Source of the DNA: Bacteroidota bacterium
Lineage (GTDB): Bacteria; Bacteroidota; Ignavibacteria; SZUA-365
Length of the DNA stretch: 35,783 nucleotides
Assembly: GCA_003246455.1 (NCBI GenBank)
Contig: QKAF01000061.1
Coordinates: 1-35,783 of the forward strand
Direction of reading: 5' to 3'
The notes under the pieces are model-generated. The model made no database searches and was not told the DNA's origin. It saw only the letters and a program-made list of their open reading frames with translations. The position numbers and the translations under genes are program-made. Shown piece by piece: positions 10,734 to 20,740 of the stretch; position 1 is the stretch's first letter, and each line of letters opens with the position of its first letter.

Positions 10734-10840
10734 CAGCGCAGTGATTTCTTCGCAGGAGAGCCTTTATTCACACAGAGTATCCCGCCCGAACCGGCGGCAG
10801 CATGACACACCTCGCCGGTTCGGAATATCCGGAGGACAAC

Positions 10841-12322
10841 ATGAAACGCGCGATTATCCTTTCTCTCTTCCTTATGTTCGTCACGGTCCTGACCGCCAGG
10901 GCCCAGATTGTCGAAGACGCTCTTCGGCTCTCGCACAGCGGGACTCTCGTCAGCGCAAGAAGTGCGGGTATGGGCAATGCGTTCGTCGGACTCGCAAATG
11001 ACGCTTCGGCGCTCTATTGGAATCCTGCGGGCCTCGGCCAGCTCCGCATGCGGGAATTCTCCATCGGACTTGCGAACGTCGGCATGAGCAACGACGCCAC
11101 GCTGCTCGGGACGACCGCCAACGGCAGTGAAAGCGGCATGGCCCTGACCAACCTGAACCTTGCGATTCCTTTCCCCGTCGCTCGCGGCAGTTTCGTGGTC
11201 GCTGCCGGGTATAACCGTCTGCTCGATTACACGGGTACAATGCAGATGGCGGTGTTCAACCCGCAGAGTTCGATCCAGTCCTCTCTCTACGACGGCGAAG
11301 AGAATTACGATTTCGCATGGAATCTCGGCCTGGAAGACACTCTCGTGCTCAGCTATATCGATGAAGGGAAGCCCGGCTGGTTTGCCATTCCCGTCGCGAA
11401 CCGGGTGCAGCAGACCATCGACCAGTTCGAAGAAGGCGGACTCAACCAGTGGAGCTTCGGCGGAAGCATGGAAGTCGCACCGAACGCGATGGTGGGTATC
11501 TCGCTCAACATTCTTTCCGGCTCCTACCGGTATCAGCGCTCCTTCATCGAAGATGACATCAACAACGTCTGGCAGGATGTGATTGTCGGCATCGACAACG
11601 CTGCCCGCACCGATTTCCAGCGTCTCGAACTCGAGGAAGAATGGGAGCAGGATATCTCCGGATGGAACGTACGCATCGGCTTCCTCTATAACCTGAACGA
11701 CAAAGCGCGTTTCGGTGTGGCGATACAGACCGCAAACATGATTTCCGTCAGCGAGGACTACTCGAAAACCGGGTACAGCAGATTCGCCGATGCGAGTCTC
11801 AGCTACGATCTGACCGTCGACAACAACAACTACGACATCACCACCGCCCCGATCTACAGTTTCGGCGCCTCCTGGTCGCCGGTCGAATTCGCGACGATCA
11901 GCGGGGATTTCGAGCTCATCGATTATTCCAAGCTGGAGTTCGGCGACAACAATAATTTCAACACCACATCGCTCAACCGCGACCTCCGCAACCTGTTCCG
12001 CGCTACCAACAATTTCCGCATCGGCGCGGAATTCAACATCCCGAAAACCGGGCTGTTCGTCCGCGGCGGCTTCGGGTATCGGTATTCACCGTGGGACGCC
12101 GACAAAGGAGATTCGAAGTACGACGTGACAACCATCTCCGCCGGACTCGGCTACGAATTTGAAAATAACTTTGCTGTCCAGGTCGCATATTCGGCGTCAA
12201 ATTACGAGACCTTCAGTTTCAACTATACGGATCCGGATAGCGACGTGAACGAAAACGCCTTTACCACCGAGCAGCAGATCGACATTTCCCGGCTCATGTT
12301 CGGCATCACATATCGCTTCTGA
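10841..12322 (+). CDS. FadL/OMPP1 (PorV-like) family outer-membrane barrel protein
   Basis: This is a 493-residue outer-membrane protein. The start at 10841 is set by GGAGG at 10831-10835 and gives a 22-residue signal peptide ending ARAQ. The mature N-terminus has the family hallmark SARSAGMGNAFVGLANDASALYWNPAGL (residues about 39-66), seen in FadL/TodX hydrophobic transporters and in the T9SS shuttle proteins PorV/PorP-like. The remainder is barrel strands and ends in YRF, the aromatic C-terminus recognised by BamA. At 493 residues it is longer than typical PorV (about 390) and closer to FadL. Uptake of a hydrophobic substrate is the likelier role, but a T9SS role cannot be excluded given two T9SS cargo genes nearby. 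A strong terminator follows. Confidence 0.83.
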   Translation: MKRAIILSLFLMFVTVLTARAQIVEDALRLSHSGTLVSARSAGMGNAFVGLANDASALYWNPAGLGQLRMREFSIGLANVGMSNDATLLGTTANGSESGMALTNLNLAIPFPVARGSFVVAAGYNRLLDYTGTMQMAVFNPQSSIQSSLYDGEENYDFAWNLGLEDTLVLSYIDEGKPGWFAIPVANRVQQTIDQFEEGGLNQWSFGGSMEVAPNAMVGISLNILSGSYRYQRSFIEDDINNVWQDVIVGIDNAARTDFQRLELEEEWEQDISGWNVRIGFLYNLNDKARFGVAIQTANMISVSEDYSKTGYSRFADASLSYDLTVDNNNYDITTAPIYSFGASWSPVEFATISGDFELIDYSKLEFGDNNNFNTTSLNRDLRNLFRATNNFRIGAEFNIPKTGLFVRGGFGYRYSPWDADKGDSKYDVTTISAGLGYEFENNFAVQVAYSASNYETFSFNYTDPDSDVNENAFTTEQQIDISRLMFGITYRF

Positions 12323-18494: not shown

Positions 18495-18764
18495 GGTGTT
18501 ACCTGTTACTTCATTATTTTGAATTCTACGCATCGCCCGCCTCAAAATCAAGTCATCCGGATATCCGGCAGGCATTCGTCTGCCCGATTTCCCCCCCTCC
18601 GGAGTCCGGAAGAAATGGTCAGAAAAAAACGAAAAATATTATTCCCCTATAAGTCATTGTGGCTCCCGTACTTTGAAAAAGTCAAGTGTCGACGCGTTTT
18701 TTTACGTGTTGAAAATCATCTTTTCCATGTCTATACTATCCATCGTCATCACAGCCTTCAACGC

Positions 18765-18784
18765 TGTGAATAAGTTGTGGATAA
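18765..18784 (-). promoter_or_regulatory. Pair of DnaA boxes
   Basis: TGTGAATAA (18765-18773) and TGTGGATAA (18776-18784) have the same orientation, with starts 11 bp apart (one helical turn). Both fit TTWTNCACA exactly on the minus strand. Confidence 0.85.
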
Positions 18785-18993
18785 GTTAAATCCATTAATC
18801 AAGATAGAGATTGGTTAGAATTGGGCGGTTGAACCACCTTCCGTCGCTGGCGTTAAATCTCCTGATGCTCTTATTCTAAGCTGTTCTATTTAAAGGATTT
18901 GGCGTAATTACTGCGCCGATTTCCGCGGGATGTCTTGCCTCTTCGCCACGACGAGGACGTGATGGCTCTGTTTTTTTGTGAAATATACCCTTT

Positions 18994-19002
18994 TGTGAAT
19001 AA
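18994..19002 (-). promoter_or_regulatory. DnaA box in the dnaA leader
   Basis: TGTGAATAA lies 12 bp upstream of the dnaA ATG. Its position is suited to autorepression by DnaA or to origin function. Confidence 0.75.
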
Positions 19003-19013
19003 CTCCGACGCTC

Positions 19014-20429
19014 ATGAACGTTGAAACCGGCACTTCCGCCGTTGCCGCATGGAATAATTGTCTTGAACTGATCCGACCGCAGGTCAAGCCGCTGACTTTC
19101 AGTACATGGTTCGAACCGATCATCCCGTCCACCCTCGACGAGGGACTGCTTACGGTGGAGGTACCGAGTACCTATTTCTACGAGTGGCTGGAGGAGCATT
19201 ATTTCGACCTCCTCCAGGATTCGCTGCGGGAGATTCTCGGCCCGAATGCCTCTCTGCAGTACGCGGTGAAAGTCCCGAAGCAGGAACAGTTTAATTTCGC
19301 CTCCGAGAGCAATCCGTACCCCGCAGGATCTCCGTCGGCCGCACAGCCGCGCGAGAACAACGGGACTCCGACACCGGTTTACGTACGGGAACCGTTCGTC
19401 AGCAATCTGAATCCGAAATTCACCTTCGAAAGCTTCATCCGTGGGGACGGCAACCAGTTCGCGCGCGCCGCGGCGCTGAATGTCGCGAACAATGCGGGCG
19501 AAACCGCGTTCAATCCGCTCGTGCTGTACGGCGGCGTGGGACTCGGCAAGACGCATCTGATACAGGCTATCGGCAACCACGTCTCGCACACGAACCCCGG
19601 CAAGCGCGTGTACTACGTGAGCAGTGAAAAGTTCACGATCGATTTCGTGGACGCCATCGAGCGCAACAACACGATCGAGTTCTCCAACTTCTATCGGAAC
19701 ATGGATGTACTCATCGTCGACGACATTCAGTTCTTTTCCGGCAAGGAAAGAACGCAGGATACCTTCTTCCATACCTTCAACACCCTTCATCAGCTGAAGA
19801 AACAGATCATTCTTTCCTCCGACCGGCCGCCGAAGGATCTCGTCGGACTGGACGAACGTCTCATCTCCCGCTTCCAATGCGGTCTGACGGTGGACGTTCA
19901 GCCGCCTGACCTCGAGACCCGTATCGCCATTCTCCGGAAGAAGGCGGAAGGAGACCATATCGACATTCCCCAGGATGTCATCGAGTTCATCGCCTCGAAT
20001 GTCAAATCCAACATACGGGAACTCGAGGGCTGCTATATCGGACTCATTGCACGGCACACACTCGAGCAGCGTCCGCTCGATGTGACGCTCGCGGAACGCG
20101 TGCTCAAGCATGTCATCTCGTCGGAGAAGAAAGATCTTACCGTCGAACAGATTCAGAAGCTCGTTGCCGACCATTTCAAGGTTCCGGAGAACTCCTTGCG
20201 CGCGAAAACCCGGAAACAGGAAATAGTCCTGCCGAGGCAGGTCGCGATGTATCTCGCGAAGAATCTCACGCGTGCCTCCCTGAAGACCATCGGTCTCCAT
20301 TTCGGCGGCCGCGACCACAGCACGATCATCCATGCCTGCAAGTCCATCGCGCAGGGAATGGAGAAGGACGACGAACTGAAGGGAAGCGTCGAACAGCTGC
20401 AGAAGCAGATTTCCTACATCGCGCGATAG
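19014..20429 (+). CDS. dnaA: Chromosomal replication initiator DnaA
   Basis: This 471-residue AAA+ initiator binds DnaA boxes, opens the origin and loads the helicase. Domain I is about 1-90 (AWNNCLELIRPQVKPLTFSTWF), domain II is a Pro/Ser/Asn linker (about 91-130), and domain III is the AAA+ core with Walker A GGVGLGKT (173-180), Walker B IVDDIQF (234-240) and sensor II R335 in NIRELEG. Domain IV carries the DNA-binding signature GGRDHSTI (431-438). Length is standard. The ATG at 19014 follows a DnaA box and has no evident ribosome binding site. A strong terminator follows. DnaA boxes on both sides and outward-pointing neighbours mark the locus as the origin. Confidence 0.98.
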   Translation: MNVETGTSAVAAWNNCLELIRPQVKPLTFSTWFEPIIPSTLDEGLLTVEVPSTYFYEWLEEHYFDLLQDSLREILGPNASLQYAVKVPKQEQFNFASESNPYPAGSPSAAQPRENNGTPTPVYVREPFVSNLNPKFTFESFIRGDGNQFARAAALNVANNAGETAFNPLVLYGGVGLGKTHLIQAIGNHVSHTNPGKRVYYVSSEKFTIDFVDAIERNNTIEFSNFYRNMDVLIVDDIQFFSGKERTQDTFFHTFNTLHQLKKQIILSSDRPPKDLVGLDERLISRFQCGLTVDVQPPDLETRIAILRKKAEGDHIDIPQDVIEFIASNVKSNIRELEGCYIGLIARHTLEQRPLDVTLAERVLKHVISSEKKDLTVEQIQKLVADHFKVPENSLRAKTRKQEIVLPRQVAMYLAKNLTRASLKTIGLHFGGRDHSTIIHACKSIAQGMEKDDELKGSVEQLQKQISYIAR

Positions 20430-20470
20430 TTCATCCACACATGTGGAAAACCACTGTGTACAAAGCGTCA

Positions 20471-20505
20471 GGGCGGCCGGTAAATTGTCAACGGCCGCCC
20501 TTTTT
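20471..20505 (+). terminator. Rho-independent terminator after dnaA
   Basis: A perfect 9-bp stem (GGGCGGCCG 20471-20479 with CGGCCGCCC 20492-20500), a 12-nt loop and TTTTT. Confidence 0.92.
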
Positions 20506-20641
20506 CGTTGTGGACAACCCCGTTTCCCATGCTGCTTGCTGTTCCCAACACGATGCTAACACATTCCAAACATGAAGGAAATCTTCAAGTCAGAACGGCG
20601 GAAGTCTTTTCATTTCAACAGCTGCGCCATCGATTTTTCCG

Positions 20642-20658
20642 TTATCCACATATCCACA
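20642..20658 (+). promoter_or_regulatory. Overlapping tandem DnaA boxes
   Basis: A perfect TTATCCACA (20642-20650) is followed directly by ATATCCACA (20650-20658, one mismatch). They are next to AT-rich DNA, the arrangement expected beside an unwinding element. Confidence 0.8.
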
Positions 20659-20740
20659 TTTTCAATAACAATAGGTATTATGATCATATCACAAAGATGT
20701 GAATACAATTGGCGTGTGGTGAGCGGTTCAGGTGCGTGAA

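Follow-up and report, generated by a model that had tools for sequence, protein, structure and literature searches.

Origin and gene context

The two non-coding regions flanking dnaA in this uncultured member of the Ignavibacteria (Bacteroidota) almost certainly contain the chromosomal replication origin (oriC). Support for the locus as an origin is good; support for an origin divided in two by dnaA is moderate, and we favour that complete reading with corresponding reserve. A bipartite origin had been proposed in an initial annotation of the same DNA. Its anatomy stood, with conserved box clusters flanking dnaA and a predicted unwinding element beside one of them, while the role in initiation given to the upstream half did not stand as firmly. 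No published origin for the family was found in the literature searched.

The DNA analysed (the window, 35,783 nucleotides) is one entire contig (G000:C73) of a 4.1 Mb assembly in 165 contigs, and dnaA occurs once in that assembly. To its left lie argS, a gene for a LytR_C protein and one more ORF, all pointing left. To its right follow a glnD-like gene, murI, two methylmalonyl-CoA mutase genes and an Ig-like ORF, all pointing right as far as 32224, which is the divergence of gene directions described initially. The order argS, LytR_C, ORF, oriC1, dnaA, oriC2, glnD, murI is retained in most of the family. No glnD match was found in G006 and G012, where murI directly follows dnaA and the downstream module of boxes and triplets described below is still in place. 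The usual neighbour of dnaA is dnaN. In the complete relative G007 the two genes are 1.96 Mb apart (dnaN and dnaA at G007:C1:290406 and 3568024, respectively), and in the window's genome dnaN is on a different contig from dnaA, whereas several sister families keep the two adjacent. The features of the locus are as follows.

18650–18686, plus strand: 37-bp element TAAGTCNTT-N10-TACTTTGAAAAAGTCAAG, seen in the alignment; not a DnaA box
18709–18737, plus strand: likely dnaA promoter, TTGAAA-N17-TATACT, 10 of 12 consensus positions; conserved in the family alignment
18765–18773, minus strand: DnaA box TTATTCACA of the upstream pair (putative oriC1), exact; conserved in relatives
18776–18784, minus strand: DnaA box TTATCCACA of the upstream pair (putative oriC1), 11 bp from its partner, exact; conserved in relatives
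18994–19002, minus strand: DnaA box TTATTCACA right before the dnaA start codon; TGTGAATAACT in most aligned family members
19014–20429, plus strand: the initiator gene dnaA, flanked by the two halves (TIGR00362, 543.6 bits)
20431–20439, plus strand: one-mismatch box TCATCCACA; not conserved in relatives
20442–20450, minus strand: DnaA box TTTTCCACA of the downstream half (putative oriC2), exact; conserved in relatives
20455–20463, minus strand: one-mismatch box TTGTACACA; a box or near-box at this position in most relatives
20471–20505, plus strand: within the downstream half, the likely dnaA terminator (hairpin followed by a T run); stem position conserved
20509–20517, minus strand: one-mismatch box TTGTCCACA; position not conserved
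20570–20587, plus strand: ACATSAAG-N5-YTTSA element of the downstream half, conserved in the alignment; not a DnaA box
20642–20650, plus strand: DnaA box TTATCCACA, first of the predicted unwinding module, exact; conserved in relatives
20650–20658, plus strand: second, overlapping box ATATCCACA of that module, one mismatch; the tandem follows dnaA in nearly every f1/f2 genome
20659–20710, plus strand: predicted AT-rich unwinding element, containing the window's GC-skew turning point
20662–20673, plus strand: four DnaA-trio-like triplets, TCA ATA ACA ATA, in a conserved register; CTA ATA ATA ATT in relatives
20698–20706, minus strand: one-mismatch box GTATTCACA, at the distal end of the AT-rich strip; only partly conserved

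DnaA boxes on both sides of dnaA

All boxes reported in the initial annotation were recovered, both the exact TTWTNCACA matches at 18765(−), 18776(−), 18994(−), 20442(−) and 20642(+) and the one-mismatch sites at 20431, 20509, 20650 and 20698, and every one of them lies outside the dnaA coding region. Two further boxes had been overlooked, TTGTACACA at 20455(−) and TATTTCACA at 18977(−). Six exact matches occur in the window against 0.92 expected, a number reached by none of 100 shuffles; the sixth, at 10764, is remote from dnaA. Genome-wide, TTATNCACA is present at 27 sites in 4.1 Mb, fewer than its reversed control (40), and four of the 27 fall within the 1.9 kb around dnaA, forming a cluster well above chance (Poisson P of about 5e-10 against the genome's background rate).

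We regard the positional conservation in relatives, judged from aligned sequences, as stronger evidence against chance than these counts. Among family members whose DnaA proteins are from 92 to about 70% identical, boxes recur upstream of dnaA at about −247, −236 and −20, all on the minus strand, and downstream at about +16 to +30 (minus strand) and +216 (plus strand), while the non-coding sequence around them shows no further conservation over much of its length. A chance cluster, which has nothing in its favour beyond the shortness of the motif, is scarcely credible in view of both the probability against the genome's own rate and the conserved positions.

A predicted unwinding module in the downstream half

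The basal unwinding system (BUS), defined in Bacillus subtilis and predicted for some 85% of bacterial origins, consists of two boxes and a short spacer followed by DnaA-trios, read on the opposite strand as 3'-GAT-5' (PMC8287927). The downstream half carries a similar arrangement. From 20642 the window reads TTATCCACA-TATCCACA-TTT-TCA-ATA-ACA-ATA, and G005 has, in the same register, TTATCCACA-TATACACA-TGC-CTA-ATA-ATA-ATT. The conserved family motif is thus TTATCCACATATCCACA, a 3–4 bp spacer and CTA/ATA-type triplets. Nearly all readable family genomes have the tandem boxes at this site, with only occasional one-mismatch hits elsewhere, and other families of the class carry a variant module (TTATCAACATATCAACAGTCCTTATAATAACAATAGG in family f3, for example) downstream of dnaA. 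Because G026 has a tandem box on the upstream side of the gene, we looked for an upstream module in the sister families; the best copy was downstream in most families, and a switch of sides was discarded.

The tandem boxes at 20642/20650 lie within 16 bp of the triplets, and the 11 bp that separate the better box from the first triplet fall within the published 10–13 bp peak. A strict run of at least three consecutive DnaA-trios (3'-NAN-5') is absent from the window, where two of the four triplets have C in the middle, but is present in the relatives G005, G007, G008 and G012. On this sequence evidence the window's module probably works like a BUS, although its own copy departs from the formal definition in that one respect.

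The AT-rich strip named initially as the candidate unwinding element is real and lies beside the boxes: the 50-mer of lowest GC content within 500 bp of dnaA (20656–20705, 24% GC) starts 227 bp after the stop codon, and at finer scale the GC skew turns there. Since a BUS-like motif coincides with the skew turn, the downstream half is marked as the unwinding site, and the origin would very probably open in this part.

GC skew points to an origin at dnaA

As the window's assembly is fragmented, chromosome-wide skew was computed on G007, a single-contig genome (5.24 Mb) of the same family. The initial annotation would have been refuted by a skew minimum elsewhere, which G007 did not show. Across sixty 20-kb samples of G007 the cumulative skew was lowest in the sample containing dnaA and highest near 0.87 Mb, on the opposite side of the chromosome. 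A contiguous stretch of 193 kb put the minimum at 3569711, which is 269 bp past the dnaA stop codon. The walk on the window's own contig has its minimum at 20669, and seven of eight family genomes turn +233 to +439 bp after the stop, at or just past the conserved motif, positions to be read with a true resolution of about one gene because the AT-rich gap holds few G or C residues. The walk descends across dnaA and climbs again in the gene that follows, which places the switch downstream of dnaA. In the eighth genome, G004, the local minimum is 22 kb to the right of dnaA, perhaps after a recent rearrangement, with boxes and unwinding module intact.

Origins away from dnaA do seem to exist in the class. 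G039, a complete genome from a family without boxes at dnaA, has its skew minimum near 0.1–0.2 Mb and dnaA at 0.72 Mb (L207, G039:C1:715001-735000), as if its origin were separated from the gene. That the boxes studied here likewise serve transcription only, with the origin elsewhere on the chromosome, is nevertheless very improbable, given the G007 minimum at the locus and the local turns in seven of eight genomes.

The upstream half: autoregulation or part of the origin

The window's upstream boxes stand at −249, −238 and −20 from the dnaA start, with position and strand kept across the family. The pair lies 28–47 bp past the conserved −10 sequence and the third box abuts the start codon, so that boxes closely follow the dnaA promoter. 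Because of this location after a conserved promoter, the upstream boxes can also be explained by autoregulation of dnaA, and that they regulate the gene is probable. Rfam returned no RNA family above threshold in the dnaA region. The pair was considered as a second unwinding module and rejected, since the triplet-like −10 sequence is more than 16 bp away and the AT-rich strip farther still.

These observations raise a serious, though less probable, alternative to the two-part origin, namely that the downstream region (20430–20720) alone is oriC and the upstream boxes are solely autoregulatory. Besides the box positions relative to promoter and start codon, the skew turn in the downstream region speaks for it. 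So does Melioribacter roseus, another member of the Ignavibacteria, in which an origin with clear skew transitions was predicted directly downstream of dnaA, in the dnaA–dnaN gap alone (PMC3534657). That species has a single 303-bp gap between the two genes, whereas here dnaN is unlinked and the upstream boxes are conserved. No paper describing an upstream origin part in the Ignavibacteria was found.

Evidence bearing on this alternative comes from the boxes on either side of dnaA in 37 genomes from 17 families of the class. By family, upstream and downstream boxes tend to occur together or to be missing together (Spearman 0.76, P 0.0005; Fisher P 0.006), in statistics that ignore relatedness and base composition. 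Both sides are free of boxes in families f5, f8, f16 and f17; dnaA should presumably still be regulated in these families, and a purely autoregulatory site need not disappear along with the origin. Exceptions are f12, with one upstream box and none downstream, and f4, with upstream boxes and no strict downstream box. As upstream boxes tend to vanish with the origin, a role in the origin is favoured. The correlation thus favours a true two-part origin, short of proof, and we lean towards the upstream boxes taking part in initiation.

Proposed mechanism and known split origins

The boxes, their conservation, the skew turning point, the promoter and the AT-rich strip are observed directly; from them we infer DnaA binding, unwinding, looping and autoregulation along the following lines. 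DnaA would bind the strong boxes in both intergenic regions, load from the tandem boxes at 20642/20650 onto the adjacent trio-like triplets at 20662–20673 and open the AT-rich strip to about 20710. Forks would then depart both ways, the leftward one crossing dnaA head-on. The upstream boxes (18765, 18776 and 18994) would repress dnaA when DnaA is abundant and may also act as oriC1, contacting oriC2 through a loop that contains dnaA, in the manner of Bacillus and Helicobacter.

A split layout, with oriC1 before dnaA and oriC2 and the unwinding element after it, is known from Epsilonproteobacteria and B. subtilis (PMC5043019, PMC8235120, PMC4285127). In the former (Helicobacter pylori, Wolinella, Sulfurimonas and Arcobacter), oriC1 and oriC2 flank dnaA in the same way (PMC5043019, PMC8235120), and the unwinding element is in oriC2, with two boxes and then trios, an order predicted here as well. 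Those bacteria belong to another phylum and use boxes with a TTCAC core, whereas the boxes here are of the E. coli type (TTATCCACA), the next gene is glnD or murI, and dnaN is far off. The B. subtilis origin (incAB/incC, BUS) also has two regions flanking dnaA and unwinds downstream, at two adjacent boxes and DnaA-trios; by comparison, there are fewer boxes here, the window's trios are degenerate and no dnaN adjoins. In H. pylori, oriC1 is dispensable for opening in vitro (PMC8235120). Failure of the upstream half to act in vitro would therefore not by itself refute the two-part origin.

Gram-negative split origins have previously been described for Epsilonproteobacteria (PMC5043019), and the reason for the splitting of some origins by dnaA is still debated (PMC4285127). 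Another Gram-negative lineage with such an origin, in which families keep or lose both halves, would offer natural comparisons for the role of the upstream half. The skew turning point within the downstream half is a precise, bench-testable prediction in an uncultured group.

Other conserved elements and minor observations

The distant dnaN and the 37-bp element at 18650–18686 are new observations. The element contains TTGA-N5-TCAA and is present just before the dnaA promoter, as a single copy, in 11 of the 13 genomes of this family and its sister (f1/f2); the remaining families searched gave no match. The idea that TAAGTCNTT is a general promoter motif was rejected, since only about eight distinct sites, sharing no common context, were seen in 1.36 Mb of partly overlapping G007 sequence. 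Tentatively, and with less than even confidence, the element could bind a lineage-specific protein controlling the timing of dnaA expression or of origin firing, in what would be the first two-part origin described in Bacteroidota. The ACATSAAG-N5-YTTSA element of the downstream half has six copies genome-wide.

The likely dnaA terminator has a 9-bp stem and a 12-base loop followed by TTTTT, and in several relatives the loop contains the DnaA-box-like sequence TGTGGA. The remote exact box of the window (10764–10772) is isolated; a PorV-like outer membrane ORF (10802–12322) begins 30 bp after it. Far from dnaA, two TTATCCACA boxes 116 bp apart (G000:C36:113967-114091) form the sole other close TTATNCACA pair in the genome, possibly a DnaA-titrating or regulatory site.
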